DNA of 64,000 nt from the NCBI RefSeq assembly GCF_021023085.1, contig NZ_PGCK01000008.1, positions 62,001 through 126,000 of the forward strand. The letters run 5' to 3'. The DNA comes from Methanooceanicella nereidis. Lineage in GTDB: Archaea > Halobacteriota > Methanocellia > Methanocellales > Methanocellaceae. The notes beneath the pieces are model-generated. The model was not told the origin of the DNA. It was given only the letters and a program-made list of their open reading frames with translations, and ran no database searches. The translations under genes were made by a program, and so were the position numbers. Positions 36,373-62,744 of this stretch are shown here, in pieces; position 1 is the first letter of the stretch; every line of letters starts with the position of its first letter.

Positions 36373-36373
36373 T

Positions 36374-37503: not shown

Positions 37504-37535
37504 GGGATCACTTTATCAAATTATTTTGTTTTGAT

Positions 37536-37691: not shown

Positions 37692-37704
37692 GGAGGTATG
37701 AAAT

Positions 37705-38687: not shown

Positions 38688-38701
38688 ACAGATGATCATA
38701 A

Positions 38702-39472: not shown

Positions 39473-39504
39473 GCGGGTTTAAAGAAAAATCATGAGGTAT
39501 TTTG

Positions 39505-46383: not shown

Positions 46384-46824
46384 ATGCACGATATGCCAGG
46401 ATGTATTTACAATAATTTAGAAAAAGATTATTCAATAGAGGACCTTGCAGCATTTCACGGGCATCTGGGCCCATACATAGTTTTAGGCTACAGGATGGGC
46501 AAGTATGCTAAAAGATATTTCTGTAACGACCCGTTCCACATGAACGCTAACGTCCACTGTAACGGTGTTCCGCCGCAGTCATGCCTGGTCGACGGCGTCC
46601 AGATAGGCAGCGGATGTACCCTTGGAAAAAGAAACATCGAGATAACTGTCAGCGATAGTATAAAATGCGAATTCGTCTCGGACGATAAAAAGGTAGTTCT
46701 GACTCCGAAGCCGATCAAGTTCCCGCCACGCGACGCAGAAGACTATTTTAAGAAGATAGAGGCACTTGCCGTCCAGATGTATAACATGGACGACGTCGAC
46801 CTTTTCGAAGCAGGAAAAAATTGA
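46384..46824 (+). CDS. FmdE-family protein
   Basis: Belongs to the FmdE family, first named from formylmethanofuran dehydrogenase operons; its members bind metal and their role is not settled. AAFHGHLGPYIVLGYRMG carries the HxH motif (about residues 25-27), and GSGCTLGKRNIEI the conserved Cys region. The usual Cys of HGHTCPG is replaced here by Gly. It has no C-terminal zinc ribbon. It lies just upstream of an ABC importer and is probably its first gene, which suggests a role in handling the imported metal or cofactor. Confidence 0.85.
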   Translation: MHDMPGCIYNNLEKDYSIEDLAAFHGHLGPYIVLGYRMGKYAKRYFCNDPFHMNANVHCNGVPPQSCLVDGVQIGSGCTLGKRNIEITVSDSIKCEFVSDDKKVVLTPKPIKFPPRDAEDYFKKIEALAVQMYNMDDVDLFEAGKN

Positions 46825-46843
46825 GCTGAGGGGGATCCCGGCC

Positions 46844-47572: not shown

Positions 47573-48403
47573 TTGTTCGAGTTTTTCATATCCAATAACA
47601 TAGTATGCCATGCGGTCGAAGCCATGGTGTTCGCATCGATATCGTGCAGCATACTGGGCGTAATAATATCCAGGATGAATATTTCCTCTATAGGCTTTAC
47701 CATGTCCCATGCCGCCTTCGCAGGAGCAGCGCTGGGATTGTTCCTGGGGACGAACGCCACTCTCGTAGCGATACTTTTCAGCATAGCGATAGCGTTGCTG
47801 ATAGGGCCGGTCAGCGATAAGACGAAGATGTCGACCGATACGACTCTGGGCGTGATGTTCGCCATGACGATGGCCATTGCGATATTTTTCATATCATACA
47901 TGCAATACATCGGAAAAGGCTTCAGCGCGAGCGGCCTGCTCTTCGGCGATGTCATATCGCTTTACCGTGAGGAAATATACAGTATCGCCGTCATATCCGC
48001 TCTTACTATCTTTTTCATACTGCTGTTCTATAAGGAAATACTGGCGCTCATGTTTAACATGAAGATAGCGATGGCGTCCGGTATCAGGACGAAGCTGTTA
48101 TTCTATGCCGTACTTTTCATCATCGCGGTGTCGATCGCCCTGAACATCCAGATAGTGGGCGGGCTTTTAATATATGTATGGCTTGTCGTTCCCGCAGCCA
48201 TAGCATATCAGTTCTGCTATAACGTCAGGAATATGTTCATCGTAGCGCCTCTGGTGGCTGTCGTAGTAAGCATTATCGGGGTGTGGGCCGGTTTTGAATA
48301 TACGCTTCCAATAGGGCCCCTTACCGCTGTGATATTTACTGTGGTATTTGCCATTTCTGTAATACTATCTCCAAAACGAAGGATAACAAGTAATAAATTT
48401 TAA
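47573..48403 (+). CDS. Metal-type ABC transporter permease
   Basis: ABC-3 family permease, about eight hydrophobic helices. SSIGFTMSHAAFAGAALGLFLGTNATL replaces the [10 protein letters not shown] motif of ZnuB, and FNMKIAMASGIRTKLLFYAVL is the coupling helix. The divergence in the channel motif from the neighbouring ZnuB suggests another substrate. TTG start at 47573 directly after the ATPase stop, with AGGGTGA upstream. Confidence 0.88.
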   Translation: MFEFFISNNIVCHAVEAMVFASISCSILGVIISRMNISSIGFTMSHAAFAGAALGLFLGTNATLVAILFSIAIALLIGPVSDKTKMSTDTTLGVMFAMTMAIAIFFISYMQYIGKGFSASGLLFGDVISLYREEIYSIAVISALTIFFILLFYKEILALMFNMKIAMASGIRTKLLFYAVLFIIAVSIALNIQIVGGLLIYVWLVVPAAIAYQFCYNVRNMFIVAPLVAVVVSIIGVWAGFEYTLPIGPLTAVIFTVVFAISVILSPKRRITSNKF

Positions 48404-48429
48404 ATATATTGTAATACTACTTGATAAGT

Positions 48430-49425
48430 ATGTCAGCTAAACGATTGCTTATCATTAGTATTATGTCCATTTTATTGATGGCCTTACCGGCATGTGCGGA
48501 ATCATCCGGGAAGTTAGACATCGTATCGACAACAAGCGTTCTCTGGGACCCTGTAGCCCAGATCGGCGGAGATAAGGTAAATGTCATTTACATTTCTAAC
48601 CCGGCCATATGCCCGCACATGCAGTCCGACGTCATACAGAACAACTTACAGTTAAACAAGGACTTCATTAGCAAGGCGGACATGTTCGTGGCGAATAACG
48701 GCTCTATAGACAAGGAGTATGTAATGCCGTATGTCGCGGACTTCATGAAATCGAACGGCTTCGGCGAGGTCAAGTGGTATACTCTGAAAGACCCTTCAAT
48801 GACCTGGAACAAGCCTGAGAACGCAAAGAAGCTTGCCGCCGAAGTGAAAGGATGGCTCGCGGAAAAGGACCCGGATAACGCGGCATACTACGAGGAAAAC
48901 TATAACGAGTATGTGAAAAAGATCGACGCTGCCGAACCCACAGAGCAGGAAAAGGGGCTGCTGGGCCAGCAGAACGTAATAGTGATGTTATGGCAGCAGG
49001 ACGCTGTCCAGAACTGGCTCGGCATTAATGTCGTGAACATATTTGCACCTGAGTTCGCGATGAACGGCACAAAGACACCTGCAAAGCTCGTCGACGACAT
49101 AAAGGCGAACCCGGATAAATACAAAGACGTGAAGTTCATCATAGAGAACATGCAGTCCGGAGAGCTTGCTAAAGGCGTTGAAGAGGCCTTGAAGGATGAG
49201 GGTATAAACGTAAAGAGAGTCGTATTTACAAATTATCCCCGGTCAGTAGAGGGTGTTGAGTCCATACCCGACCTGCTAAAATACAACAAGGACCTGATAC
49301 TGGAGAACGCTGCGGAGCCTACAAACACTGTAACCCCCACACAGACACCTGTAGGTATGATCGCAGTTATCGCAGGGATGCTGATCGGCACGGTCCTTGT
49401 ACTTTACCGGTCGAGGAACAATTAA
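48430..49425 (+). CDS. Divergent ZnuA/TroA-like substrate-binding protein with C-terminal anchor
   Basis: Extracytoplasmic binding protein of the cluster A-I type. A signal peptide ends near PACAESS (the Cys could be lipidated). VDIVSTTSVLWDPVAQIGGDKVNVIYI matches the TroA fold start, and PAICPHMQSD carries one His, but the later His positions of ZnuA are not seen (MLWQQDAVQNWLG and IIENMQSGELAKG stand there). A C-terminal hydrophobic helix (MIAVIAGMLIGTVLVLY) with a basic tail anchors it. The altered ligand set suggests a cargo other than Zn2+. ATG 48430 is preferred over TTG 48421. Confidence 0.82.
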   Translation: MSAKRLLIISIMSILLMALPACAESSGKLDIVSTTSVLWDPVAQIGGDKVNVIYISNPAICPHMQSDVIQNNLQLNKDFISKADMFVANNGSIDKEYVMPYVADFMKSNGFGEVKWYTLKDPSMTWNKPENAKKLAAEVKGWLAEKDPDNAAYYEENYNEYVKKIDAAEPTEQEKGLLGQQNVIVMLWQQDAVQNWLGINVVNIFAPEFAMNGTKTPAKLVDDIKANPDKYKDVKFIIENMQSGELAKGVEEALKDEGINVKRVVFTNYPRSVEGVESIPDLLKYNKDLILENAAEPTNTVTPTQTPVGMIAVIAGMLIGTVLVLYRSRNN

Positions 49426-49426
49426 C

Positions 49427-49450
49427 GGCCCCTTCAAGGGCCCTTTTTTT
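49427..49450 (+). terminator. Hairpin with T tract
   Basis: GGCCCCTT faces AAGGGCCC with one mismatch and is followed by seven T (49444-49450), directly after the binding-protein stop. It ends the FmdE/ABC transcript before the DUF169 gene. Confidence 0.75.
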
Positions 49451-49465
49451 CTTGGGGTTTTCGTT

Positions 49466-50218
49466 GTGACCAATACAAATGAACGGGATATTGCACTCAA
49501 ACTGGCGTCATCCCTTCGCTTAGAGATACTGCCGGTATGCGTATACGGTTCGGAAGAAATACCTGATGCGGGGGTTCGAGCCTCCGCCATAAGCGATTGT
49601 GTCGCGGAGTCGATATTCAGGATGGCTTCGGGCGAAAAGCCATATCCCTTATATGTAAGCCTGGAGGAAGGAGAGGACTTTTGCAGGTGCAGGGGAGGTC
49701 CGGCGTGGTTCGGATATTCAGGCTTCGATCCTGACCTGATATCTTCGATGTCTACCGTGTCCACAGGTGAACATTGTGAACCTAAACTTTTAAAGGCAAC
49801 CCCGGAAGTGGCGAAAAATACCTATGATGCTCTCGGCAAGATAACCCCTATCGGAAAATATACCGTGATGAGAAGATGCGATGACCCGGGCCTTACCGGC
49901 TGTGACGTAAAATGTATCATATTCTTCGGCACGGCAGGTAGCATAAGGGACCTGTGCGGGCTCGCGCATTTCAGGAATCCCGGCATCATGAACGCCGCCG
50001 AACTGCCCTGGGGCCCGTCCTGCGGCACGCTTGTCACATACCCTGCGGGAATGTCGGATAAAATAAAAGCGGACAGGGTCTTTATCGGACCTGTAGACCC
50101 ATCGGCGAGATACTGGCTAGACCCTGCATTGATGGCTGCAGGCATACCTGTAGAGATGGCGAGAGATATGGCTGCGGACGTCGATATATCGTTCATCTCA
50201 AAGATAACTAAAACGTGA
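49466..50218 (+). CDS. DUF169 family protein
   Basis: Matches the DUF169 family (uncharacterised, common in methanogens and anaerobes): RCRGGPAWFGYSGF with two Cys, ISSMSTVSTGEHCEPKLLKATPEVAKNTYDAL, and VKCIIFFGTAGSIRDLCGLAHF followed by WGPSCGTLVTYPAG. Several conserved Cys suggest metal or cofactor binding. The likely start is GTG 49466 with GGGG about 8 bases upstream; the frame extends back into the terminator but without protein character. It begins just after the FmdE/ABC cluster terminator. Confidence 0.8.
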   Translation: MTNTNERDIALKLASSLRLEILPVCVYGSEEIPDAGVRASAISDCVAESIFRMASGEKPYPLYVSLEEGEDFCRCRGGPAWFGYSGFDPDLISSMSTVSTGEHCEPKLLKATPEVAKNTYDALGKITPIGKYTVMRRCDDPGLTGCDVKCIIFFGTAGSIRDLCGLAHFRNPGIMNAAELPWGPSCGTLVTYPAGMSDKIKADRVFIGPVDPSARYWLDPALMAAGIPVEMARDMAADVDISFISKITKT

Positions 50219-50280: not shown

Positions 50281-51270
50281 ATGGAACCGGTCATAGAGAC
50301 ATTCGGCATCACTAAAAAATTCGGGGATAACATAGCCGTTAACGAGGTTGACCTTAGCGTGGGCAATGGAGAGGTCTTCGGTCTATTAGGGCCGAACGGC
50401 GCGGGTAAGACGACGCTTCTGTCGATGCTCTGCACTATCTTAAAGCCCACGTCCGGGACTGCAAAAGTAAACGGGTATGACATTATCAGGCAGCATTCTG
50501 ACGTGAGGAAGTCGATAGGCATTGTCTTCCAGGACCCCAGCGTCGATGCCAATATGACCGCCAGAGAGAACCTGCAAATGCACTCGGACCTGTACAGCGT
50601 CCCTGTCCCTGAACAAAAAGAAAGGATAGGATCGGTATTAAAACTGGTCGAGCTGGAGGATAAGGCGAACAGTTTTGTGGGCACGTTCTCCGGCGGCATG
50701 AGGAGGCGGCTGGAGATAGCAAGAGGGTTACTTCACTACCCTAAAGTCCTGTTTTTAGATGAGCCCACCATAGGCCTCGACCCGCAAAGCAGGGAGCATA
50801 TCTGGGATTATATCCGGGAACTAAAGAAAAGAGAGGACATGACAATCATACTTACCACTCACTATATGGAAGAGGCTGACAGGCTCTGCGACAAGATAGC
50901 CATCATCGACCACGGGAAGATAGTCGCCCTTGACTCTCCGGGAAGGTTAAAAGCAGCGCTGGGCGGCGACCTTATAACAGTCGGCACGAAAGAAAGCTTG
51001 AAACTTTCTCAAATAGTGCTGGAAAAAAAGCTGTCCGACCGGGTACAGGCCGTCAATGGAGAGGTAAAGATCACGGTGAACAACGCTCTTACTTCAATCC
51101 CGAGGATCATTGATGCAGCGACAGCATCAGGAATCTATGTCGAGTATGTATCGGTCAAGCAGCCGGACATGAACGACGTCTTCATTCATCACACGGGCAG
51201 GGACCTGAGGCATGAGAGCGGGGCTGAGATGCTGGGAAGGATGGCTATGAAGAAGAGGCGGATGAGATGA
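50281..51270 (+). CDS. ABC-2 type export ATPase (DrrA-like)
   Basis: ATP-binding subunit of an exporter of the daunorubicin-resistance (DrrA) type. Walker A GPNGAGKTT, Q loop VFQDPSVDANMTARENL, signature FSGGMRRRLEIARGL, Walker B VLFLDEPTIGLDPQSREHIWDYI, H loop LTTHYMEEADRLCD. The C-terminal ~100 residues with VEYVSVKQPDMNDVFIHHTGRDLR are the DrrA-type extension. It overlaps the permease gene by 4 bases. The substrate cannot be inferred. Confidence 0.9.
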   Translation: MEPVIETFGITKKFGDNIAVNEVDLSVGNGEVFGLLGPNGAGKTTLLSMLCTILKPTSGTAKVNGYDIIRQHSDVRKSIGIVFQDPSVDANMTARENLQMHSDLYSVPVPEQKERIGSVLKLVELEDKANSFVGTFSGGMRRRLEIARGLLHYPKVLFLDEPTIGLDPQSREHIWDYIRELKKREDMTIILTTHYMEEADRLCDKIAIIDHGKIVALDSPGRLKAALGGDLITVGTKESLKLSQIVLEKKLSDRVQAVNGEVKITVNNALTSIPRIIDAATASGIYVEYVSVKQPDMNDVFIHHTGRDLRHESGAEMLGRMAMKKRRMR

Positions 51271-52022
51271 GCGAAGTACGCGGGATATACACCATCTGGC
51301 TCAGGGAGGTCAAAAGGTTCCTCCGGGAAAAGACGCGTCTTGCAAATGCATTTTTCCAGCCTCTGTTGTGGCTGTTCATCTTTGGCACTGGAATGCGTTT
51401 CTCTGCGGGCTCAAATTCTTTTAATTACCAGGAGTTTATCTTTCCCGGCCTGATATGCCAGGCGATGCTCTTTACGGCCATGTTCATGGGCGTGTCCATA
51501 ATATGGGACAGGGAGTTCGGATTCCTAAAGGAAATACTCGTATCACCCTTATCGAGGCTATCGATATTTTTAGGCAAGATGCTGGGTGTTAGCACTGATG
51601 TCATGCTTCAAGGCCTGATAATATTCCCGTTCGCGTTTCTGATAGGGGCTGGTTTTGGTCCGATCGAATTTTTTAAGGCAATACCTATAATGATCCTCAT
51701 AGCTTTCGGGCTGGTGTGCCTCGGCCTCGGCTTCGCCAGTTTCATGAAAAGCCTTGAAGGCTTCGGGCTGGTCCAGACGTTCATCAACATGCCGATGTTC
51801 TTTTTAAGCGGGGCGTTATTCCCGCTAACAAATGTTCCCACATGGCTCCAATGGGTAAGCTATTTTAACCCGCTCACCTATGGTGTCGATGCTTTAAGGA
51901 CTGTGATGATGGGCAGCTCGTGGACGCCATTGTTCCCGATATATATTGACCTGGGCGTCCTGGTGGTCTTCGATATAGCTATGATATTGTTCGGGACGTA
52001 TGCGTTCAGCAGGACGGAATGA
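51267..52022 (+). CDS. ABC-2 type export permease (DrrB-like)
   Basis: Membrane subunit of the DrrAB-type exporter with six hydrophobic segments. YTIWLREVKRFLREKTRLANAFFQPLLWLFIFG is the amphipathic start; FLSGALFPLTNVPTWLQWVSYFNPLTYGVDALR is the ABC-2 signature. Length 251 is typical. Translationally coupled to the ATPase. Confidence 0.92.
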   Translation: MSEVRGIYTIWLREVKRFLREKTRLANAFFQPLLWLFIFGTGMRFSAGSNSFNYQEFIFPGLICQAMLFTAMFMGVSIIWDREFGFLKEILVSPLSRLSIFLGKMLGVSTDVMLQGLIIFPFAFLIGAGFGPIEFFKAIPIMILIAFGLVCLGLGFASFMKSLEGFGLVQTFINMPMFFLSGALFPLTNVPTWLQWVSYFNPLTYGVDALRTVMMGSSWTPLFPIYIDLGVLVVFDIAMILFGTYAFSRTE

Positions 52023-52059: not shown

Positions 52060-52632
52060 TTATTTTTTGCGTTCTCTGACTTCTTTTTGTATACGTTGCA
52101 TCCAATCAGGGGTAAGGACATCTTCCAGCGGGTATGACTCTTTGACATAAGGTTTGATGTCGATGACAGGGCTTCCATCGACCGCGTCCAGCCCCGCGAC
52201 TTCAAGCACGTTCCCTTTTCTACTTAAAAGCCTGACAACGGTCATGAGCACCGGGTTGGGCCTGGCAGGGCTGCAGGTCGAGAATATCCCTGTCAACGGG
52301 AACTCTTTTCTGCCCATTGGATGTACCCTGGTCAGGGAGCGGCTTTTTTCCGGGACTTTATGCGCCCAGTATAATACGACAAGGTGAGAGTATTTTTCTA
52401 TGCCATAAAGGATGTCTGCCAGGTCTTCGTTGATAATGATCTCAGAAATATTCTCATGTGTTTTACGGATATTCTCCTGTGAAGTGTCTGTCTGTCCCTG
52501 CATGCTGATGCCATCGTCATCGGCGACCAGAATCGGTTCTTTAACACTGTTCTTTACAAATCCGACTGGTCTCAGGACTATGTTAAAGGGCGGCTTATTG
52601 CTGGAATCGGGTGACTGCTTCCATGTCTCCAT
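52060..52632 (-). CDS. trmO: tRNA (t6A37) N6-methyltransferase TrmO-like
   Basis: TrmO/TsaA (YaeB/VirR) family, which methylates t6A37 in certain tRNAs with SAM using a beta-barrel unlike Rossmann enzymes. RPVGFVKNSVKEP opens the domain; YSHLVVLYWAHKV, GIFSTCSPARPNPVLMTVVRLL and LDAVDGSPVIDIKPYV are family signatures. An insert (about residues 40-65) enlarges it relative to the minimal archaeal form. It is convergent with the DrrB gene. Confidence 0.85.
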   Translation of the reverse strand: METWKQSPDSSNKPPFNIVLRPVGFVKNSVKEPILVADDDGISMQGQTDTSQENIRKTHENISEIIINEDLADILYGIEKYSHLVVLYWAHKVPEKSRSLTRVHPMGRKEFPLTGIFSTCSPARPNPVLMTVVRLLSRKGNVLEVAGLDAVDGSPVIDIKPYVKESYPLEDVLTPDWMQRIQKEVRERKK

Positions 52633-52862: not shown

Positions 52863-54584
52863 CTAATGACGATCATGGCAGCACAGCCCTATCCTTGAAC
52901 CCACCAGCCTCTTTGTATAGTCTTCGTGCGGGCTGAGCATCACATCATGGGCGTTCCCGGTCTCTATTATCTTTCCTGTATCCATGACTGCTATCCTGTC
53001 CGCTATCTTTAGCGTTAGCGTCAGGTCATGCGAGATGTATATCATCGCAAAGCCTCTCCTGTTTTGGAGCCCTTTAAGGAGGCGAAGCACGTTCGCTGCT
53101 GTGGAGACATCAAGGGCGGAGGTTATCTCGTCCGCTATGAGCAGTTTCGGCCTCATGATAAGGGCCCGCGCCAGCGCGACCCGCTGTCTCTGGCCGCCGC
53201 TCAGCTCGCCGCAATACTTGTTGAGAAATTCCCCGGTCGACGGTAATCTGACCAGGGAAAGGACATCCATGGCCATTTCTATCCTTTCTTCGTGAGTACC
53301 GATGTTATTGATGTCCAGCGGCTCCTTTACGGCGTCCAGAACGGTGAACCTGCTGCTGGTGGAATTGAACGGGTCCTGGAAGACGATCTGTACGCCTCCG
53401 AACTTTGAGCTATGGCCATTTCCGTTCAATTTTGCATCCTTAAAAAAGACGTCCCCGTTTTCAGGTTTCATAACGCCTGCAAGTATGTGCGCGAGAGTGG
53501 ATTTTCCGGAGCCTGTCTGCCCCACAATTGCCAATACCTCTCCTTCCCTGACTTCCATGTGCACGTCGTCAACCGCGCTGATCTTCCTGCCATCGGGCAT
53601 ATAATAATTAAACGCGAGGCACGAGGCCTTTAAAAGTGTGGCTATGCCGCCCCTGTGGCATGCGACCTCCCTGCCGCCATAGCCCTTTAGCTCTGGCGGA
53701 GCTTCCAGACATATGTCTATAGGCTGTGTGCACCTTGAATAAAAGGGGCATCCTTTATGTTTACCGGATGAAGACTCTCCTGGTATACCCCACATGTCCT
53801 TATAAATGAATATATCAGGCGTTGAATTTATCAGGCCCCTGGTATATGGATGCCTTGGAGAGTTGACCACGTCCCTGGTGGGGCCTCTTTCCACTATCCT
53901 GCCAGAATATAGCACCATCAGCCTCGACGCCATCGAGGAGACGAAAGTGATGTCATGCGATATCATTACCATGCTGTAGCCATGCTTTTTTTGCAGGTCC
54001 AGTAGCAGATCCCTGATTTCTTTCCTTGCGAAAGCGTCCAGGGCAGAGGTGACCTCGTCCAGTATCAATAGCTCCGGTTCGCACGATAGCGCCATAGCTA
54101 TCAGCACTCTTTGCCTCATACCTCCGGATAGTTGATGCGGGTATGCGCCCATCCATACGGGGTCCAGTCCCACCATGCCGAACAGTTCGACGCACCTTGC
54201 CTCAGCATCTTTTTTGCTCAGCCTCAAATGTTTTATCATTGGCTCGCATACCTGCTGTCCAACCTTCATGACGGGGTTTAATACTTCCAGGCCGTTCTGG
54301 AAGACCATAGCTATTTCCTTCCATCTTACCCTGTCCTTCTCATATTCCTGCATCGAGGCGATGTCCTTCCCTTCGAACAATATTTTCCCCGAGATCTTCG
54401 TATTTCCAGGCAGGAGCCCTATGATGCCCAATGCTAAGGTCGTCTTACCGCTACCTGATTCACCCACTATGCCAAGGATCTCTCCCTTCTCTAACGTGAA
54501 GCTCACATGGTCTACGGCTATGACAGAGCTTTTATCCGACATGTATTCGCATTTTAGGTCTTTAAAGTCAAGCTGAGGCATCAT
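52863..54584 (-). CDS. Fused DppD-DppF-type ABC ATPase for nickel/peptide uptake
   Basis: Both ATPase subunits of a peptide/nickel importer in one 573-residue chain. First half: Walker A GESGSGKTT (about 39), signature LSGGMRQRVLIAMAL, Walker B LLILDEVTSALD, and the Cys-rich C-terminal region (CPFYSRCTQPIDIC) found in DppD/OppD, a probable Fe-S or zinc site. Second half: Walker A GQTGSGKST (about 355), signature [15 protein letters not shown], Walker B LLIADEITSALD. It overlaps the DppC-type permease by 4 bases and is the last gene of the operon SBP-methyltransferase-permease-permease-ATPase. Confidence 0.9.
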   Translation of the reverse strand: MMPQLDFKDLKCEYMSDKSSVIAVDHVSFTLEKGEILGIVGESGSGKTTLALGIIGLLPGNTKISGKILFEGKDIASMQEYEKDRVRWKEIAMVFQNGLEVLNPVMKVGQQVCEPMIKHLRLSKKDAEARCVELFGMVGLDPVWMGAYPHQLSGGMRQRVLIAMALSCEPELLILDEVTSALDAFARKEIRDLLLDLQKKHGYSMVMISHDITFVSSMASRLMVLYSGRIVERGPTRDVVNSPRHPYTRGLINSTPDIFIYKDMWGIPGESSSGKHKGCPFYSRCTQPIDICLEAPPELKGYGGREVACHRGGIATLLKASCLAFNYYMPDGRKISAVDDVHMEVREGEVLAIVGQTGSGKSTLAHILAGVMKPENGDVFFKDAKLNGNGHSSKFGGVQIVFQDPFNSTSSRFTVLDAVKEPLDINNIGTHEERIEMAMDVLSLVRLPSTGEFLNKYCGELSGGQRQRVALARALIMRPKLLIADEITSALDVSTAANVLRLLKGLQNRRGFAMIYISHDLTLTLKIADRIAVMDTGKIIETGNAHDVMLSPHEDYTKRLVGSRIGLCCHDRH

Positions 54585-55510
54585 CTATCACTCTTCTTTC
54601 TAAGTTTGGGGTCTATGATACGTTCCATGTCCCTTCCGATGAAGGCGAGGCACAGCAGTAAAAATATCAGCGCCACCAGGGGAGGTATAAGCCACCACTG
54701 CCAGTATGGCGTGAAATATATCGACCTGAAATGGGTCGCATAATACAGCAGCATCCCCCAGCTCTTGGAGGTAGGGTCGCCCAGCCCCAGGAAAGCCAGG
54801 CCGGATTCCGCAACTATCGCGTATGAGGACAGGTTCACTATGCTGACGAATATCAAAGGCAGCACTTCGGGCACTATATGCTTCCGTATGACGTATATCG
54901 GTCCTCCTCCATGCAGCCTTGCTGATATGACGTACTTTTGCTTTTTCATAGAAAGGGTCTGCGACCTTGCTATCCTTGCGGGCTTCGCCCATGAAAAAAG
55001 GACCAGTATCATTATCACGTTCACTATGCTGGGTCCCATGAAGGCGGCTATTACTATCAATAGTGGAAAGTTGGGCAGCGCCAGGGTGATGTCGATAGCC
55101 CTTAATAATAGCTTATCCCATATCCCCCCAATATATCCGGCAAGAATTCCGAGCACTCCGCCGCCCAGTCCGGATACCATAGCTACTGCGAGCCCTATTA
55201 CAAGGCTCATCCTCGCGCCGTAACATATCTGAGACCATATATCCATTCCAAGCTCGTCTGTCCCGAGGATATGTTCCGGTCCCGGGGCCTCCAGGGATTT
55301 TCCCGATATTGCGGAGGGTTCGTAAAAAGTGATAAACGGGGCAAAGACGGCCATCAAGAATATCAGGAGTAAACCGACCACACCGATCTTTCCCGGTATG
55401 GTGAATTTATTTATTATATCCTGTATTGACGATATCTTTTTAATGGACCTGGAGCCGGCGTTTTTTAGGACGACTGCTTGCTTATTCGCTACAGGGTGCA
55501 TCCCGGGCAT
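54581..55510 (-). CDS. DppC/NikC-type ABC permease
   Basis: Second membrane subunit of the peptide/nickel importer. A cytoplasmic N-terminal segment is followed by about six helices. LEAPGPEHILGTDELGMDIWSQICYGARMSL is the classic DppC/NikC motif, and HIVPEVLPLIFVSIVNLSSYAIVAESGLAFLGLGDPTSKSWGMLLYYA the coupling region. Length 309 is typical. It starts 3 bases after the DppB-type gene. Confidence 0.92.
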   Translation of the reverse strand: MPGMHPVANKQAVVLKNAGSRSIKKISSIQDIINKFTIPGKIGVVGLLLIFLMAVFAPFITFYEPSAISGKSLEAPGPEHILGTDELGMDIWSQICYGARMSLVIGLAVAMVSGLGGGVLGILAGYIGGIWDKLLLRAIDITLALPNFPLLIVIAAFMGPSIVNVIMILVLFSWAKPARIARSQTLSMKKQKYVISARLHGGGPIYVIRKHIVPEVLPLIFVSIVNLSSYAIVAESGLAFLGLGDPTSKSWGMLLYYATHFRSIYFTPYWQWWLIPPLVALIFLLLCLAFIGRDMERIIDPKLRKKSDR

Positions 55511-55513
55511 TTT

Positions 55514-56509
55514 TTACACCTCTGCCGATTCTGTTCTCGGGTCGAGGCGCTTATACAGCGCATCCACAAGATAATTAGCGGTCAGTATGCTTATCGCCAT
55601 GACCAGCATGATCCCCTGTATGAGCGGGTAGTCCCTAGCTATCACGGCATTTCTTAACAGTGTGCCGATGCCGGGATAGTTGAACACGTTCTCGACAAGC
55701 ACTGCGCCTCCGACAAGCATGCCGAGCTGGAAGCCGACTCTTGTCACTACGGGCAGCAAAGCGTTCCGGAGCGCGTGCCTGTTCCAGACAAGCCGTTCGC
55801 CGATGCCCTTTGCTCGTGCAGTCCTTATATAGTCCCTTGTCATGACCGTGACGAGAGTATTTCTCGTGAGAAGGTATACGCCCGTAAGCTGCGTAAATGC
55901 GAGGGTTATCATCGGTAAAAACGCATGGTAAGCTATGTCCCATATCTGGTCCGGCAGGCCCGCATATCGTGCGAACGGGGTGATCGCGCCCGCCAGCGGG
56001 AAGATTTTCAGATAAACGGCAAATGTGAGCAGCAGAACAATGCCTAACAGGAATGACGGGATCTCGGCGAAACTTATCAGGCCGACGATCATGAGCTTGT
56101 CAGCGGCACCTTCTCTTCTTTTAGCGGAAAATATGCCTAAGGATATCCCTGCCAGAGTACTTATTATCGTGGCCCCGAGCACTATCAGCACTGTCCAGGG
56201 CAAATGGGTCCATATAGCCTGCAGCACAGAGACCTTATAATAAATGCTCATCCCGAAGTCGCCGGTGAACAGTGACATGACATAACTGATGAACTGCTCA
56301 TAGACCGGCCTGTCAAGGCCGTAATAGCTAATATAGTACAGCCGCTGCTCTTCCGTGAGTATCGAGACCACTTCACCCTCCGCATCCCCCGAAAGGAGTA
56401 AGAACGGGTCTCCGGGCATCATCCGGGGGAGGAAAAAGTTAAGGATGAGTATAATGGAAAGGGTGATAGCGTATTGTACTATCATGCCCTTCCTGTCGCT
56501 TTTTTTCAT
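55514..56509 (-). CDS. DppB/NikB-type ABC permease
   Basis: First membrane subunit of the peptide/nickel importer. FFLPRMMPGDPFLLL near the N-terminus, YGLDRPVYEQFISYVMSLFTGDFGMSIYY and YIRTARAKGIGERLVWNRHALRNALLPVVTRVG are the DppB signatures; FNYPGIGTLLRNAVIARDYPLIQGIML is the end. Its start overlaps the methyltransferase gene stop by 4 bases, so transporter and methyltransferase are translationally linked. Confidence 0.92.
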   Translation of the reverse strand: MKKSDRKGMIVQYAITLSIILILNFFLPRMMPGDPFLLLSGDAEGEVVSILTEEQRLYYISYYGLDRPVYEQFISYVMSLFTGDFGMSIYYKVSVLQAIWTHLPWTVLIVLGATIISTLAGISLGIFSAKRREGAADKLMIVGLISFAEIPSFLLGIVLLLTFAVYLKIFPLAGAITPFARYAGLPDQIWDIAYHAFLPMITLAFTQLTGVYLLTRNTLVTVMTRDYIRTARAKGIGERLVWNRHALRNALLPVVTRVGFQLGMLVGGAVLVENVFNYPGIGTLLRNAVIARDYPLIQGIMLVMAISILTANYLVDALYKRLDPRTESAEV

Positions 56510-57351
56510 TTGTTGTTTTTCTCCCAGACCATCATTCCCGTGACAGCGATCGTCTCGGATCGATATTTTCCATCATTGGACCGTTCCTGGAAGTATTCTC
56601 TCATGCGGCCTTTCATTTCCTCGTCTATGTCCTTCGTGCTGCTGAAGAACCCTGAGACGGTCTCGACCATGTCCTCTACGGTCTCATCGCTATTCCATAT
56701 GTCCCTCTTAATCTTTATCTCGGGCCTGTATCCCATTGTGTAAAGGTACATGAACGGCAGGTAGAACCCATGAGTAATTTCCCTGAACTCCTCGTTGAAG
56801 AGCATTTTGTATAGTTCATTGTACGAGCTGTCCCATTTCCTGTTCACCCAGCCGCTGTAGTAGCATACTCCTTTCGAGGCATCGAGCATCATGTCGAACG
56901 TCTCCGGGCCGTTAATCCCGGGTGTCATTGACGCGATGACGAGGTCGAACTTACCCTTGAAGCCCATGGAATCGAGGTCGATGTCCTTCCATGCGCTGTG
57001 GATCGTCTTGATGTTAGATATGCCATCTTCTGCCGCGCTTTTTTCGAGCCTTTTTAGCATCTCTGCGGATATGTCCACTGCCGTGACCTTCGCTCCCATC
57101 TTTGCGAGAGGGAGGGCGAAGGTGCCCGGGCCCGAACCTATATCGAGTACCTCCGCATCTTCTATCTTCAAGCCGGTGCTCTGGATAAAATCCAGTACGG
57201 TCCTTAGTTTACCTTCTTTTCTGTCGCTGGAGACGTAGTCGCCATATTTTTCCGCTCTTTTATCCCAGAAGGATGCCTGTCTCGGTCCCCGGCCGATAGC
57301 TGGCGTCGCCTGATGCCAGTACTCAAACCAATTTTTTGTGTTCTCATCCAT
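56506..57351 (-). CDS. SAM-dependent methyltransferase embedded in the importer operon
   Basis: Class I methyltransferase of 281 residues lying between the binding-protein and permease genes. An N-terminal region (WFEYWHQATPAIGRGPRQASFWDKRAEKYGDY) precedes the Rossmann core with VLDIGSGPGTFALPLAKMGAKVTAVDIS. A conserved FDLVIASMTPGINGPETFDMMLDASKGVCYYSGW segment and a long helical C-terminal part are shared with the methyltransferase at 61403 (PGIN, CYY/CYV, NGKY), so the two are paralogues. ATG 57351 is preferred because GGTGTGA precedes it; 57366 is also in frame. Substrate unknown; a nickel ligand or transported chelate is inferred from position. Confidence 0.85.
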   Translation of the reverse strand: MDENTKNWFEYWHQATPAIGRGPRQASFWDKRAEKYGDYVSSDRKEGKLRTVLDFIQSTGLKIEDAEVLDIGSGPGTFALPLAKMGAKVTAVDISAEMLKRLEKSAAEDGISNIKTIHSAWKDIDLDSMGFKGKFDLVIASMTPGINGPETFDMMLDASKGVCYYSGWVNRKWDSSYNELYKMLFNEEFREITHGFYLPFMYLYTMGYRPEIKIKRDIWNSDETVEDMVETVSGFFSSTKDIDEEMKGRMREYFQERSNDGKYRSETIAVTGMMVWEKNNK

Positions 57352-57356
57352 TATCG

Positions 57357-59045
57357 TCACACCCATGCGATCTCTGTACGGTCGAGATACGAGAGTTTGC
57401 TGTGTGTCACCTCATGGTGGTCGAACATGTTCATCCAGCCGTCATACACCGTCGGGCGGTATGCTTCATAGCTGGCTGTATAATACAGCGGCACGCTGGG
57501 TACATCTTCCGCCAGGACTTCCTGCAATTTGTAGATTATCTGTTTACGCTTCTCGGTATCAGTCTCTTTAAGCTGCTCGAGCGCCAGTTTGTCGACCTCG
57601 TCGTTCTGGTATCCGATAAGAGGCCTTCCATGGCTCGCTCCCTGCATACCGAAATTAGTGCCGCAGAACTTAGTCCTCAGATAGTCTGCGTCTCCGCCCC
57701 ATCCTCCGTAGCCGTTTATGGCTATCTCGAAGTCGCCCTGCTTCAGTTTCGTGTCACGTGATTTGCTTTCCACTGCCTGGATCGTGACATCTATTCCTGC
57801 CTCCTTAAGGCGCTCTTTAACGAGTTCTCCTATTCTTGCCTCGCCACTCGCTAATATCAGGGTGAAGGATAGTTTCTTGCCATTCTTGTCCATTATGCCG
57901 TCGCCATCGCTATCCTTCCAGCCAGCGTCAGCCAGTACCTGTTTTGCCTTATTGGCGTCATGCTCGTACTGCGGTATGTTTTCGTTGTACCAGATATGGT
58001 CCTGCGGGAGTATTCCCATGCTTCCGGGCTTTCCTGCTCCCCTGCCGACCTTCTCGACAAGTTCATCTCTGTCGATCGCGTATGCGAACGCCTGCCTTAC
58101 AGCCTTATCCTTAAGGATGGAGTTCTTGTTCTCGTTAAAGGACAGTTCGTATCCCCATATAGCCGGCTGCTGGAATACGTATACGCCCGGGTCACTCTTG
58201 AACATGTCAATAGTATCGGGGGATAGTCCCGTGAAGTCTATTTCGTTCTGCTGGAACGAGACCAGCGAATCACTAACGGGTACGAACTCGATGTTCTTCA
58301 CTCTGGGCGTTGGCCCCCAGAAGTTCTCGTTCGCCACAAACTTGTATGTGCCGTGCTCCTTGCTGTACTCGGCAAGCTTGTACGGGCCGGTACCGATAAC
58401 AGCCTCGGGTGCGCTGTAAGTGTTCGGGTCAGAGACATCACTCCAGATATGCTCCGGGATTATCTTGAATGAATAAAGCTGGTATATGAACGGTGCGATG
58501 GGCTGGGAAAGGGTCATCTTGATCGTATGGTCATCGATGACGGTGACGCTCTCTATGGCAGACAGGTCAGCTCCGGACACCGGGGGGTGCGCCGTGACAT
58601 ATTCTATACTAAATTTGACGTCATCTGCAGTGAAGTCCTCTCTGTCCTGCCATTTTACGTTCTTTCTCAGGTAGAACGTGTACTCTTTACCATCTGCGCC
58701 AATATCCCATTTCTCGGCAAGCCATGGCACAATGCCCTTATCGTCCTTCTCTACAAGGGCATCAAAGATAAGGTTCATCTTGAAACTTCCCGGACCCCTG
58801 GGATAGTGCTGGAACGGTGTAGGATATCCATAATCCCCGCCCGCCAGATGAATGGTATCCACTATCCCTGGCGAAACGAACTGGCTTCCTGTGCCCGGGT
58901 TCTGCGTCGGGGTGCCTGAAGGATCTGGCTGTGACCGGGTCACGCATCCGGAAAATATCATCGTTAAACATAGACAGGCCGCTATAAGGCCCATAAAAAA
59001 ATTATTCCTACGAATTTTTACAAAACCTTTCAAATTTGGTCTCAT
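57357..59045 (-). CDS. Nickel/peptide ABC transporter substrate-binding lipoprotein
   Basis: Cluster C binding protein of the DppA/OppA/NikA type, 562 residues. A signal peptide ends in lipobox IFSGC, followed by a Pro/Thr linker. Family motifs are WLAEKWDIGADGKEYTFYLRKNVKWQDREDFTADDVKFSIEYV, GTGPYKLAEYSKEHGTYKFVANENFWG and KAVRQAFAYAIDRDELVEKV. I cannot tell from sequence whether it binds peptide, nickel or a chelate; neighbours (CooC-like, His-rich FmdE, NikR-like sites) favour nickel. It is the first gene of the operon. Confidence 0.9.
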   Translation of the reverse strand: MRPNLKGFVKIRRNNFFMGLIAACLCLTMIFSGCVTRSQPDPSGTPTQNPGTGSQFVSPGIVDTIHLAGGDYGYPTPFQHYPRGPGSFKMNLIFDALVEKDDKGIVPWLAEKWDIGADGKEYTFYLRKNVKWQDREDFTADDVKFSIEYVTAHPPVSGADLSAIESVTVIDDHTIKMTLSQPIAPFIYQLYSFKIIPEHIWSDVSDPNTYSAPEAVIGTGPYKLAEYSKEHGTYKFVANENFWGPTPRVKNIEFVPVSDSLVSFQQNEIDFTGLSPDTIDMFKSDPGVYVFQQPAIWGYELSFNENKNSILKDKAVRQAFAYAIDRDELVEKVGRGAGKPGSMGILPQDHIWYNENIPQYEHDANKAKQVLADAGWKDSDGDGIMDKNGKKLSFTLILASGEARIGELVKERLKEAGIDVTIQAVESKSRDTKLKQGDFEIAINGYGGWGGDADYLRTKFCGTNFGMQGASHGRPLIGYQNDEVDKLALEQLKETDTEKRKQIIYKLQEVLAEDVPSVPLYYTASYEAYRPTVYDGWMNMFDHHEVTHSKLSYLDRTEIAWV

Positions 59046-59399
59046 CGAACTACCTCTGTCTAAAGGGCTGACAATCGCTAGTTGTCGGTAATTTATGATA
59101 ATTAGTAATAATATTTAAAAATATCGTAACACTAAAAGAGTAAAAATATTAATTATTTAAGTGAGTAAATAATCTTTATAAAATTTATTTTTAGAAAATC
59201 TCTCATAATTATCGCTTTACATTAAGATTATTTAATAAATTTTCATGTTATAGGTGATGTCTTAATGACATTAAATATACATAAAATTCTTAAATTAATG
59301 AAAAGTATTTTGTATAATAATAGTTATTACATTTTTTAAAGTTTGTAATACAAATTTAGAAACATTACAAATTTTCTAAAATGACAACGGGCGTTAAAC
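59046..59399. promoter_or_regulatory. AT-rich divergent promoter region of the nickel-type operon and cooC
   Basis: No gene. GTAACAC at 59126-59132 has a poorer partner GTAATAA 14 bp upstream (59105-59111), a weak NikR-like pair beside the binding-protein gene. At 59342-59371 an 8-bp perfect inverted repeat (TTTGTAAT and ATTACAAA, spacer exactly 14) lies 28 bases before the cooC-like start. The common 14-bp spacing suggests a dimeric nickel regulator acting on both sides. Confidence 0.45.
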
Positions 59400-60155
59400 A
59401 TGAAGATAGCAGTTTGCGGAAAAGGCGGTTGCGGGAAGAGCACCGTGTCGGCATTGTTGGCTAAATGTATGGCGAAAAAGGGGAATAAAGTCCTTGTAGT
59501 GGATATCGACGAGTCCAACTATGGGCTTCACAGTCATCTAGGGCTTGATATGCCTGAAACCCTCATTGACCATTTCGGCGGTAAAAAGGAGTACGGCAAA
59601 AAGATGCAGGCGGCCAGGGAGGAGCAGAGGAATAGCATCTTTGACCGGAAATGGAAGATAGGGGACATACCTTCTGATCTCATAGCGTCAAAGGGCGGTA
59701 TTAAACTCATTTCAGTGGGCAAGATCCAGGATTTCGGCGAGGGCTGTGCATGCCCGCTGGGATCTTTATCCAGGCAGTTTTTCGAGAATCTCGAGCTAAA
59801 TGACAATGAGGTCGTAATAGCCGATACCGAGGCCGGTATCGAACACCTGGGCAGGTCTATTGAGCGCGGATTTGATTTCATCCTTATTATCGTCGATCCT
59901 TCCTACGAGTCCCTGAGGCTTTCGAAGAAGATAGAGGATATCACGAAGGATAATGTGGGCAAGGCCTATATTGTTCTTAACAGGGTCGAAGACGGTGTAA
60001 AGGACATTATGATGGGATCACTGGACAAAGATAAGGTAGCAGCGATCATACCGGTAAACAAGGATCTTTTCAAGGCGTCTCTTGCCGGGAAAGAGTTCGA
60101 TTCCGATATTAGGGAGATAGATGGCCTGGCCGAATTCTTGATAAATAACAATTAA
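59400..60155 (+). CDS. cooC: CooC-like nickel-insertion ATPase
   Basis: MinD/NifH-type ATPase of the CooC family, which delivers Ni to CO dehydrogenase and related enzymes. The deviant P loop is GKGGCGKST (residues 7-15), switch regions include VVDIDESNYGLH and IADTEAGIEHLGRS, and the CooC metal motif CxC is GEGCACPLG (Cys116 and Cys118), which binds one metal at the dimer interface. Length 251 is typical. No CODH gene is in the window, so the client could be CODH/ACS elsewhere or another Ni enzyme. It diverges from the nickel-type importer operon. Confidence 0.88.
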   Translation: MKIAVCGKGGCGKSTVSALLAKCMAKKGNKVLVVDIDESNYGLHSHLGLDMPETLIDHFGGKKEYGKKMQAAREEQRNSIFDRKWKIGDIPSDLIASKGGIKLISVGKIQDFGEGCACPLGSLSRQFFENLELNDNEVVIADTEAGIEHLGRSIERGFDFILIIVDPSYESLRLSKKIEDITKDNVGKAYIVLNRVEDGVKDIMMGSLDKDKVAAIIPVNKDLFKASLAGKEFDSDIREIDGLAEFLINNN

Positions 60156-60340
60156 AATATTAAGGCAAAAAGAATGCTTATTTTTGCCATTTACTTTTTA
60201 TTATCATCTAAGATAACTTAATCATTACATTAATGAATCGATGAATAACCTTTAAAAATTTTACATTTTTTATTTATTTATCAGTAATATATATTAATTA
60301 GTAACACTTTTTTTGTTATTGATAAGAATGTGAAAAGGGG

Positions 60341-60450
60341 ATATTGTCGCAGGTTTCCCCGGTTACCTGTTAAAATGTGGCAAAGGATGGTTTCCGGTTT
60401 AATGCATTCTTAGAAAACCGAAGACCCCTCTTCAGGGGTCTTTATCTTTT
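60341..60450 (+). ncRNA. Possible small RNA or structured 3' end with terminator
   Basis: The 60156-60634 gap has no gene. Within it, CAGGT/ACCTG (60350-60369) and CGGTTT/AAACCG (about 60395-60420) hairpins are followed by an excellent terminator: AGACCCCT (60422-60429), CTTC loop, AGGGGTCT (60434-60441), then TTATCTTTT. A TATA-like TATATATTAA at about 60287 lies upstream. It is either a free-standing RNA of about 120 nt or the 3' end of the cooC transcript. Half-sites GTAACAC (60301) and GTGTTAC (60552) flank it. Confidence 0.4.
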
Positions 60451-60634
60451 ATGGTCTTGATCATGGATCGATGCCTTTTTATCATATCGTTCGCCAGGGG
60501 CAGTTTTATCGTAAAAGATATGAACGGGATAAAAGGCCTTTAGATGACTTCGTGTTACCGGATCAATAATTTATATTACTAATTATATATTATTTTTCAA
60601 AAAACAGGATCATGACGATAATAAAAAAGAAGGT

Positions 60635-61363
60635 TTACCATCCTCTGGTGTATTCCTCAAAGCATGGTATGCAGACAAATCCGCCGTCCTGTACCCTTGC
60701 GCGGGACTCCGAGACCATCTCGCCGCACTTTGAACATTTGACGGACCTGAATATCATGGCCTTTTTTGGCACTTCAGCTTCGACATGCCTGATGTCGAAC
60801 AATCTTTCCGCAGGAAGCCCCATTATCCTGCTGCAAACGCCCTCCTTACGGCGATCGAACTGGTACTTTTCGCTCTCGTCGGCCTCTCCGGACATGACCT
60901 TGCTCCTGAGCCTGCCCATTTCCGGGTCGATCTCGTCGATGCTGAACGTATCCTTCAAGGCTATCCTGACGGCCTTATCGTTCTTCCTGTCTATGAAAGT
61001 ATATACGTTCTTGCCGTGATCCTTGAATATCAGGTTTCCTTTTCCGACAGTGCATCCAGTGACCACCTGGATTGCGTCAACTCCGCACGCGTCATTCTCG
61101 ACGATGGCCACAAGGTCCTCATCGATATCTCGTTCCGCGGAAAGCTCTTTAATTGCGGTCTCAGCTGCCCTATAGCCTATGGTGAGGCCGGGGCAAGTGT
61201 GTCCATGGAACTCTACGACTTCATGAAAAGACTTTATTTTCGGCCCATGGTGATGATGTTCATGTTCATGTTCATGTTCATGTTCATGCTCATGGCTATG
61301 TTCATGGCTGTGATCGTGATCGTGATGATGGTGCTCGTGTTCATGTGAATGTTCTTTATGCAT
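60635..61363 (-). CDS. FmdE-family protein with His-rich N-terminus and zinc ribbon
   Basis: FmdE-type protein of 242 residues. The first ~40 residues are an alternating His/Glu/Asp tract that would bind Ni, Zn or Co strongly, as in nickel-storage proteins such as HypB. The FmdE core follows: FHEVVEFHGHTCPGLTIGYRAAETAI (HxHxC) and DAIQVVTGCTVGKGNLIF. The C-terminus is a zinc ribbon (CSKCGEMV...CIPC). ATG 61363 is chosen because GGTGA ends 6 bases before it. It follows the methyltransferase gene at 61403 in one operon. A nickel-handling or metallochaperone role is inferred. Confidence 0.88.
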   Translation of the reverse strand: MHKEHSHEHEHHHHDHDHSHEHSHEHEHEHEHEHEHHHHGPKIKSFHEVVEFHGHTCPGLTIGYRAAETAIKELSAERDIDEDLVAIVENDACGVDAIQVVTGCTVGKGNLIFKDHGKNVYTFIDRKNDKAVRIALKDTFSIDEIDPEMGRLRSKVMSGEADESEKYQFDRRKEGVCSRIMGLPAERLFDIRHVEAEVPKKAMIFRSVKCSKCGEMVSESRARVQDGGFVCIPCFEEYTRGW

Positions 61364-61402
61364 ATTTTCACCAGCTTTTTTCATCCATTATTTATTAAAT
61401 AT

Positions 61403-62263
61403 CTATGAGGCATTATAGCCGATATTCTTTTCCCGGCTGACATCCCAGTGAAGGACGCATACAGTCCTTACCTTGCCGAGCTCATATTTTCCGTTAACCG
61501 AGCGGGAATGGATGAAGTCCCGCACTTTATTCACTTTTTCAGCGTCCATGAGTGTGAACGCACCGAAATACCTGACGAACTCCTCCGTCACTTCCTCTGC
61601 CGGGGCTCGAGAGCCCGACCTGTACCTGAATACCTTCAGCTTCGGATCCCTTCCGGAGTCGCACAGGACATTATAAGGATAAAGGATACGGAAAGCGTCG
61701 ATGGTATAGCTTTTTTCCATGACCTCATTCCATAATCCGACCAGAAGCTCGAACTGAGTAAAGTCACCCGCGACATAGCAGCAACTTCTTCTTGAGAACT
61801 TTTCCATCCTGAAAAGAGAATACGTATCGTTAATACCCGGGCAAAATGCTGAAAAAACAAGATCATACTTCTTTTCCAGATCAAAAGTTTCCCATCTTGA
61901 CTGGACCGGGCTAATATTCGTGAGACCGTTAACGTAAGCGGCCGATAACAGCTTTGAGATCATCATGCCGGACGGATCGAGTCCCGTAACATGGCTCGCA
62001 TCCCGCGCAAAAGGAATTGCGTAAGTCCCGGTGCCGCATCCAATGTCCAGGACGGTATCACGAGGCTTGAACATCCCTTCTTCGTAAAGATAACGAATGA
62101 CATCGTCGTTCATCGGGTCGCCGCACATGACCGGCTCGCAACACATTTCTGCGATATAGTCCCAGTATGCGTTCCATCCTGCTCCGATATCCCTATAATG
62201 TACGGCCGGAGATATCGTTAATGCGTTATCCCAGGCTTTTTTCCAGTCGGTCAGTTCAAGCAT
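61403..62263 (-). CDS. Cys-rich SAM-dependent methyltransferase, paralogue of the operon-embedded one
   Basis: Class I methyltransferase of about 286 residues. SAM loop VLDIGCGTGTYAIPFA; shared with the 56506 gene are the DLVFSAFCPGIN block, the CCYVAGDF block, the size and the C-terminal SVNGKYELGKVRTV ending. It differs by extra Cys, notably EMCCEPVMCG near residue 45, which could bind metal. ATG 62263 (with GGATGA upstream) or 62272 is the start. A NikR-like inverted repeat lies 37-64 bases upstream of 62272. It forms an operon with the His-rich FmdE. Confidence 0.84.
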   Translation of the reverse strand: MLELTDWKKAWDNALTISPAVHYRDIGAGWNAYWDYIAEMCCEPVMCGDPMNDDVIRYLYEEGMFKPRDTVLDIGCGTGTYAIPFARDASHVTGLDPSGMMISKLLSAAYVNGLTNISPVQSRWETFDLEKKYDLVFSAFCPGINDTYSLFRMEKFSRRSCCYVAGDFTQFELLVGLWNEVMEKSYTIDAFRILYPYNVLCDSGRDPKLKVFRYRSGSRAPAEEVTEEFVRYFGAFTLMDAEKVNKVRDFIHSRSVNGKYELGKVRTVCVLHWDVSREKNIGYNAS

Positions 62264-62308
62264 GCAGCTCATCCTGAATTTTTAAATTGAAGTAAAATTG
62301 AATATGTC

Positions 62309-62336
62309 GTGTTACTATTTAAAATTTGTTTAACAC
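62309..62336. promoter_or_regulatory. NikR-like operator GTGTTAC-N14-TTAACAC
   Basis: Half-site GTGTTAC (62309-62315) and TTAACAC (62330-62336) are separated by exactly 14 bases and differ from perfect symmetry at one position. GTGTTAC-N13/14-GTAACAC is a published NikR operator form in some bacteria. It sits in the promoter region of the methyltransferase/His-rich FmdE operon. Confidence 0.55.
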
Positions 62337-62377
62337 TTATTATTCAAAATAATTTTAAATATTATATAATATTAAAT

Positions 62378-62432
62378 GCCGGGCATAATAATATACAAGA
62401 GGTGAACACTGATATTGATGATAATGCCCGGC
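62378..62432 (+). promoter_or_regulatory. Inverted repeat with embedded ribosome site
   Basis: GCCGGGCAT (62378-62386) and ATGCCCGGC (62424-62432) are perfect 9-bp inverted repeats. Between them lie AGAGGTGA and a tiny frame from ATG 62418 encoding MIMPGF that ends at 62438. An AT-rich TATA candidate lies at about 62360-62370. It could be a leader for the small frame at 62493. Confidence 0.3.
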
Positions 62433-62492
62433 TTTTAAAGGCGGTTACTTTACCACGTTTTTAGTGCATGCGTTTTGATAGGAGGGTTAAAT

Positions 62493-62591
62493 TTGTCTTT
62501 TACGCATGTTTTTTACGTTTTAGTGGTTTGCTTTGTACTATTGGATCTCTCTGAGGATTCTTATGCATCATATTCTGATGCAATACAATAA
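62493..62591 (+). CDS. Possible 32-aa membrane microprotein
   Basis: A TTG codon 6 bases after GGAGGG (62481-62486) opens a 33-codon frame encoding a hydrophobic segment (FYVLVVCFVLL) and an acidic, Ser-rich tail. No family can be assigned to something so short; the ribosome site and spacing are the only support. It lies alone in the gap between the methyltransferase and leuB. Confidence 0.25.
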   Translation: MSFTHVFYVLVVCFVLLDLSEDSYASYSDAIQ

Positions 62592-62603
62592 TTATCATAT
62601 ATA

Positions 62604-62631
62604 GTATTAATATTTTTCTTAAATGTAACAC
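62604..62631. promoter_or_regulatory. Second NikR-like inverted pair
   Basis: GTATTAA (62604-62610) and GTAACAC (62625-62631) are again 14 bases apart; the left half matches the consensus at 5 of 7 positions. It lies more than 300 bp from the methyltransferase start, so its target is unclear. Confidence 0.3.
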
Positions 62632-62744
62632 TAAATTTTAAAAATTTAATTATTCGTATAAAATTTGTTATGTACAATACAACAAGTATACTTTTAATGA
62701 TAAAAATTTGTGATCAGAATAAATAAAAAAAGAATGGCCGGGGC

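Follow-up and report, generated by a model that had tools for sequence, protein, structure and literature searches.

The Methanooceanicella nereidis genome (GCF_021023085.1; 3.19 Mb in 41 contigs) encodes a predicted nickel importer with a methyltransferase built into its operon, within a 64-kb stretch of contig NZ_PGCK01000008.1 (positions 62,001 to 126,000, hereafter the window). Computation supports predicted nickel-type control, an operon, an exclusive pairing of one solute-binding protein (SBP) type with one methyltransferase clade (MT1), and a set of accessory genes. A methyltransferase that is always built in suggests that nickel enters bound to a small molecule and that the cell modifies this carrier afterwards. 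We therefore propose, with somewhat more confidence than doubt, that the island is a NikR-controlled nickel-chelate uptake module in which the methyltransferase would modify the chelator in the cytoplasm, probably releasing nickel to FmdE and CooC proteins encoded next to it.

The importer operon lies on the minus strand and begins with a family 5 solute-binding lipoprotein gene (SBP, 57357-59045; PF00496, E 2.8e-89), followed by MT1, a class I S-adenosylmethionine (SAM)-dependent methyltransferase (56506-57366; Methyltransf_25), a NikB/DppB-type permease (55514-56509; PF00528, Opp2B/NikB models), a NikC/DppC-type permease (54581-55510; PF00528, Opp4C/NikC models), and a fused NikD-NikE-type ATPase with two ABC_tran domains (52863-54584). 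By Pfam and NCBIfam the NikABCDE-type architecture is complete, with SBP_bac_5, two BPD_transp_1 permeases, and two ATP-binding cassette (ABC) ATPase domains. The nickel_nikD (383 bits) and nickel_nikE (365 bits) domains exceed their NCBIfam cut-offs, and the other components fall below theirs (NikA 203 of 393 bits, NikB 186 of 447, and NikC 177 of 358). SBP and MT1 overlap by 10 nt, MT1 and NikB by the 4 nt (56506-56509) already noted in an initial annotation of the window, and NikC and NikDE by 4 nt. Every gene of that annotation was recovered in place, and the island holds further parts that it had not described, namely NikR-type operators, a DrrAB-type exporter, TrmO, and a second operon combining FmdE, an ABC importer, and DUF169. 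The possibility that the island is a viral gene set was rejected because no relative of MT1 was found among IMG/VR viral contigs.

In an ortholog search of 197 genomes of the phylum, SBP orthologs (12, in 11 genomes besides this one; 56-59% identity, >690 bits) stood sharply apart from paralogs (≤41%, ≤361 bits). Besides the window, all 12 ortholog operons (11 fetched loci and a Methanoculleus operon read separately) place a methyltransferase between SBP and NikB, and none of the 18 paralog SBP loci examined has one within 1.5 kb. At most paralog loci SBP instead adjoins CooC (L201-L205, L207, L210, L212, L215, and L217), FmdE (L209, L214, and L218), or TrmO. The Methanoculleus operon, ordered FmdE-SBP-MT-NikB-(NikC)-NikDE with DrrAB, TrmO, and CooC alongside, is much like that of the window, and a Desulfobacteraceae genome carries a TonB receptor-MT-SBP-...-NikDE-FmdE arrangement.

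This strict placement bears on the alternative that a nickel importer merely travels with a nickel-responsive methyltransferase unrelated to any chelator, whose role might be, for instance, the modification of a nickel enzyme, F430, or a tetrapyrrole or the detoxification of a co-imported ligand. NikR control by itself would explain such co-location, and the wider methyltransferase family also occurs in contexts without importers. However, the gene lies directly between SBP and NikB in every orthologous operon, and Desulfobacteraceae keep it beside the same SBP type. To our knowledge, Desulfobacteraceae have no F430, so their retention of the methyltransferase counts against a role in F430 modification. 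We consider this alternative improbable.

Across the whole methyltransferase family, metal-uptake genes make up 25% of immediate neighbors, versus 5-9% of genes seven to nine positions away. Family members are found beside three classes of metal importer, CbiMQO-type genes neighbor them in five loci (L037, L041, L051, L064, and L073), and methyltransferase and CooC genes are adjacent in about eight loci. Methyltransferase, CooC, and FmdE genes recur beside metal importers, the kind of co-occurrence that the initial annotation had singled out as informative; together with the strict SBP-MT1 link and the NikR-type operators predicted below, this supports the idea put forward there that these genes form one set. 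The annotation had also held that homologs scattered away from metal genes would speak against this idea. Such scattering is seen for part of the wider family, for example in delta-proteobacterial members adjacent to gidA, and is not seen for the MT1 clade. These delta-proteobacterial members lie directly upstream of a gene of about 630-640 codons (L081, L082, L088, L092, L101, and L103), which is gidA/mnmG in L081 and of similar size in the other five loci, an unrelated conserved context; the neighboring genes had been candidate TonB receptors, an assignment rejected upon their identification as GidA/MnmG. Pasteurellaceae sequences (L102, L108, L110, and L112) form a distinct clade of the family, and in Glaesserella australis a family member follows genes for a TonB receptor and an ABC ATPase. 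Some MT-CooC clusters encode a protein of about 200 residues between CooC and a FecCD-type importer (L184, 15538-16143; L042, 11245-11859), and the L184/L094 copy had no Pfam or NCBIfam match.

Predicted operators link the island to nickel. The delta-proteobacterial NikR signal is GTGTTAC-[N13/14]-GTAACAC (Rodionov et al., 2004; PMC545781), and a scan with this consensus at N14, allowing up to three mismatches, found five matches in the window, all within three intergenic gaps (59046-59399, 60156-60634, and 62273-62744). Dinucleotide shuffles of these gaps gave a mean of 0.037 matches, with none of 2000 reaching five. Among other spacings from 8 to 21 in the gaps, N10 and N12 gave one match each and the rest none; N13 had no match in the window. 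One predicted operator precedes the SBP-MT1-importer operon (59105-59132; GTAATA-N16-TAACAC, 3 mismatches), and another lies 48 nt 5' of CooC (59324-59351; TTATTAC-N14-GTAATAC, 3 mismatches). A third dyad of this type falls in the gap between the convergent CooC and FmdE genes (60552-60579; GTGTTAC-N14-ATATTAC, 3 mismatches). Two candidate sites lie 5' of the paralogous methyltransferase gene MT2, the first 36 nt before its start (62309-62336; GTGTTAC-N14-TTAACAC, 1 mismatch) and the second further upstream (62604-62631; GTATTAA-N14-GTAACAC, 2 mismatches). The first of these is the best consensus match in the genome and has the sole GTGTTA-N16-TAACAC dyad of the 3.19 Mb. Genome-wide the consensus gave 61 matches, a rate at which about 0.07 matches would fall in the 3.7 kb at issue. 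The genome encodes a single NikR (PF08753, E 1.3e-34; PRK01002, 237 bits, cut-off 111). Its gene is the first of a nikR-nikQ-nikO-nikM-nikN cluster and has a dyad of this geometry about 20 nt before it, and two weaker matches precede nikM. An RNA family scan found no NiCo or other riboswitch upstream of the operons, the window containing an M-box and a tRNA only.

The same geometry recurs in other genomes. The 12 SBP-MT-importer operons share one main conserved upstream block, GTAAYACTYTTATA...RTAWTAY, which is the same N14 dyad (GTAAYAC-N14-GTRTTAC, mean 2.0 mismatches versus 3.4-4.7 at other spacings). A TATA-like core (TTATA) sits inside this dyad, so NikR binding there would be expected to block TBP. 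Refined on these other genomes, the motif GTAAYAC-N14-GTRTTAC was rejected for discovery in the M. nereidis genome as too loose (24 matches versus 60 in the control). Among 47 archaeal methyltransferase loci, at up to two mismatches, there were 10 matches at N13/N14 and at most two at each of eleven other spacings. Predicted sites also lie 24 nt before the methyltransferase gene of a Methanomassiliicoccales genome, 78 nt before an MT-SBP-Nik operon (L038), and, in L055, upstream of both an MT2-type gene (27 nt) and an SBP gene (82 nt). Genes for NikR itself occur within six of the retrieved methyltransferase neighborhoods, and a Methanothrix contig carries NikB-NikC-NikDE followed by nikR. The operators predicted in the island and in the 12 other operons support the assignment to nickel made in the initial annotation.

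The SBP resembles dipeptide-binding and nickel-binding proteins about equally, and several of its best PDB matches are dipeptide-binding, so family names do not decide the metal. This resemblance, together with permeases of a mixed peptide/nickel family, is what a peptide importer beside an unrelated methyltransferase, with nickel uninvolved, would also show. That explanation is at odds with NikR-type operators in three independent tests, with the CooC, FmdE, and NikR neighbors, and with an alignment in which the DppA ligand residue is not conserved; we judge it the least probable of those considered here. The alignment likewise placed none of the NikA residues that touch the nickel chelate, which we take to be W100, R137, W398, Y402, and H416, among the conserved positions of the window SBP or its orthologs. 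The SBP has motifs of its own (GGDYGYP, GGWG-DADYL, and DHH-THS-LSYL), kept in most orthologs and partly divergent in the Desulfobacteraceae copy. Given that the SBP keeps these motifs but has neither the NikA nor the DppA ligand residues, we infer that it binds a nickel chelate other than Ni-(His)2.

Accessory genes adjoin the operon. A CooC-like nickel-chaperone ATPase is encoded on the plus strand (59400-60155), divergently from the importer, and matches CooC1 (3kje) over its full length (E 9.5e-21); it is the sole copy in the genome at E≤1e-10. Its deviant P-loop (GKGGCGKST) and its CxC motif (C116-A-C118), the latter noted in the initial annotation, both align with 3kje, but unlike CooC1 it lies outside any cooS operon. 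FmdE (60635-61384) and MT2 (61403-62272) form a minus-strand pair 18 nt apart, and Pfam bears out the earlier description of FmdE as a His-rich protein with a zinc ribbon encoded beside a methyltransferase: a PF02663 core, a His-rich N-terminus, and a C4 zinc ribbon. The core keeps the His-x-His-x-Cys...Cys metal site of 2glz, and the C4 zinc finger is an optional feature of the family; the metal site and the occurrence of FmdE genes beside metal transporters have been described previously (PMC2954224). The window FmdE shares its core metal ligands and zinc ribbon with 2glz and 2gvi, but has the extra His-rich N-terminus and is not in an fmd operon. Cobalamin genes and CbiMQO genes in the window, and the CbiMQO-type genes near methyltransferases in five loci, could suggest that the set handles cobalt, or several metals, instead of nickel. 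NikR operator geometry, linkage to nikR, and the membership of CooC in a family of nickel-insertion ATPases speak against this, and we regard it as very improbable.

MT1 and MT2 are homologous over their full length (28% identity, E 6e-29) and form two neighboring clades within one larger family. Of the blocks that the initial annotation saw in both, PGIN and the Cys of CYY/CYV are shared; an invariant Cys (C168 in MT1) distinguishes both clades from the others, which in general lack it. The AlphaFold2 model of MT1 (pLDDT 86) adopts a small-molecule methyltransferase fold, and the structures that it resembles most are S- and O-methyltransferases of small molecules, TmtA/GtmA and trans-aconitate methyltransferases among them. 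The best match is to the thiol S-methyltransferases TmtA/GtmA (5egp and 5jgl; TMq 0.66), although at only 15% identity this match gives no substrate inference; the modeled fold is compatible with, and no proof of, methylation of a thiol or carboxylate donor. The CpaM corrinoid-associated methyltransferase (NF043040) was rejected as an identity for either protein (MT1 55.6 bits and MT2 38.6 bits, curated cut-off 180). Nicotianamine-type synthases were not found, as the initial annotation had anticipated: PF03059 has no match in the genome, and the 50 best fold matches of MT1 include no nicotianamine synthase structure. MT1 as a stand-in nicotianamine synthase was rejected on both counts.

We propose the following route. 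When nickel is scarce, NikR would leave operators that overlap the TATA region, allowing the operons to be expressed. The SBP would capture nickel complexed with a small chelator, not the Ni-(His)2 of NikA, and the permease and ATPase gene products would import the complex. MT1, from the same operon, would then methylate the chelator in the cytoplasm; most likely, this would make a donor group (thiol, amine, or carboxylate) weaker and thereby free the nickel. Nickel enzymes would obtain the metal through the His-rich FmdE and the CooC-type ATPase, the neighboring DrrAB-type exporter may expel the spent ligand, and MT2 may do a related job for another ligand or an FmdE-linked route. The identity of the chelator, the methylation reaction, the release and hand-over of the metal, and export are steps that we infer. 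Methylation of a ligand, as first proposed in the initial annotation, would fit this evidence; knowledge of the FmdE and CooC families makes storage on the former and delivery by the latter plausible.

Methylation could instead serve to make the chelator. Under such a scheme, MT1 and MT2 would produce a nickelophore by a single methylation of an abundant metabolite, in place of a nicotianamine-type synthase; DrrAB would export it, and the SBP-Nik importer would bring back the nickel complex, as with staphylopine. The strict coupling of the methyltransferase to one SBP type agrees with this, as do a genome without nicotianamine synthase and a DrrAB-type pair that comes straight after NikDE in L179 and L183, adjoining the importer also in the window and L180. 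The exporter keeps the synthesis model alive. However, we find it unlikely and favor release, because methyltransferases of the family serve three different classes of importer and no other gene for biosynthesis recurs with them; a Methanolobus operon also lacks DrrAB.

Several observations weigh against the module as we propose it. First, synthesis of a chelator by the methyltransferase would yield the identical gene order. Second, the operators are predictions, and the published consensus is not enriched genome-wide (61 matches versus 133 for the reversed control), so that local clustering alone is informative. Third, a six-base version of the pattern, GTRWTA-N16-TAWYAC, was originally derived from the window sites; the nikR site and a further one at 48390 were not used to derive it, and the published consensus owes nothing to the window. 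Fourth, the SBP is about as similar to dipeptide-binding as to nickel-binding proteins. Finally, metal genes neighbor the methyltransferase in 33 of 52 archaeal and 7 of 27 bacterial loci, and many members outside the MT1 clade lack them.

The island shares with E. coli NikABCDE/NikR a family 5 SBP, two permeases, two ATPase domains, and NikR-type control through a 27-28 bp inverted repeat, but differs in its fused NikDE, its embedded methyltransferase, an SBP without the NikA residues, and NikA, NikB, and NikC scores below cut-off. Like the staphylopine/opine (Cnt) systems it sets an Opp/Nik-family importer beside a SAM-using enzyme with an exporter nearby, although the enzyme is of methyltransferase type and not nicotianamine-synthase-like. 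Also comparable is Helicobacter pylori NiuBDE (PMC5140060). Members of the wider methyltransferase family lie beside FecCD/PBP2-type importers, the class to which NiuBDE belongs; we know of no methyltransferase noted in the NiuBDE system itself. The nikR-nikQ-nikO-nikM-nikN cluster corresponds to the NikMNQO and NikR of delta-proteobacteria, with the same operator geometry (PMC545781). NikMNQO is the energy-coupling factor (ECF) route; the island would add another one, dependent on an SBP but governed by the same regulator, and a dedicated enzyme that should act on the nickel ligand or on a precursor of it. All the protein families are known, and an obligate methyltransferase in a NikR-controlled importer is a new form of Nik-type uptake; our literature search found no paper on a methyltransferase in a nickel-importer operon and no description of the module, in line with the earlier remark that no pathway with this set had been described, although a study of methanogen NikR (Rodionov, 2006) could already list some of the sites. 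We hypothesize, at somewhat less than even confidence, that a nickel chelator with a dedicated SAM-dependent methylation is at work in methanogens and some sulfate reducers. The methylation would either make the chelator or inactivate it in the cytoplasm so that nickel comes free, and this would be the first archaeal nickelophore pathway. The methylation chemistry, if confirmed, would be new, and the question of an archaeal nickelophore is now directly testable through the substrate of MT1 and the ligand of the SBP.

Further genes flank the importer. The exporter pair consists of a DrrA-type ABC-2 ATPase (50281-51270, plus strand; TIGR01188, 375 bits, above cut-off) and a DrrB-type permease (51267-52022, plus strand; TIGR01247, 216 bits, slightly below the cut-off of 223), followed by a TrmO/TsaA-like gene (52060-52632, minus strand; TIGR00104, above cut-off). 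TrmO neighbors CooC or SBP in L201-L205 and the importer in L180. The exporter and TrmO were rejected as general neighbors of the whole methyltransferase family, and their association is restricted to the importer clade because enrichment across the family is weak. A plus-strand operon at 46384-50218 encodes a small FmdE-like protein, an ABC ATPase, a permease, an SBP, and DUF169; with a NikR-type dyad of the six-base pattern inside it (48390-48417), it is probably a further nickel importer. Elsewhere, a Methanothrix locus (L084) has a methyltransferase, a ZnuC/ZnuB-type importer, and DUF169 adjacent to one another, and L099 has FmdE and a methyltransferase close to ZnuABC and CbiMO-type genes. 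The window also contains a cobalamin biosynthesis run (31845-40665; CbiH, CbiG, CbiF, CbiL, CbiT, and a CbiD-like protein) beside CbiM/Q/O-type transporter genes. An M-box magnesium riboswitch (RF00380; 40769-40943, plus strand; 119 bits, gathering score 44) precedes a gene for a 443-residue protein (41028-42359) that by appearance is an MgtE-type magnesium transporter. Riboswitches of the M-box class are mainly bacterial, and only 2 of the 197 archaeal genomes searched contain an M-box.

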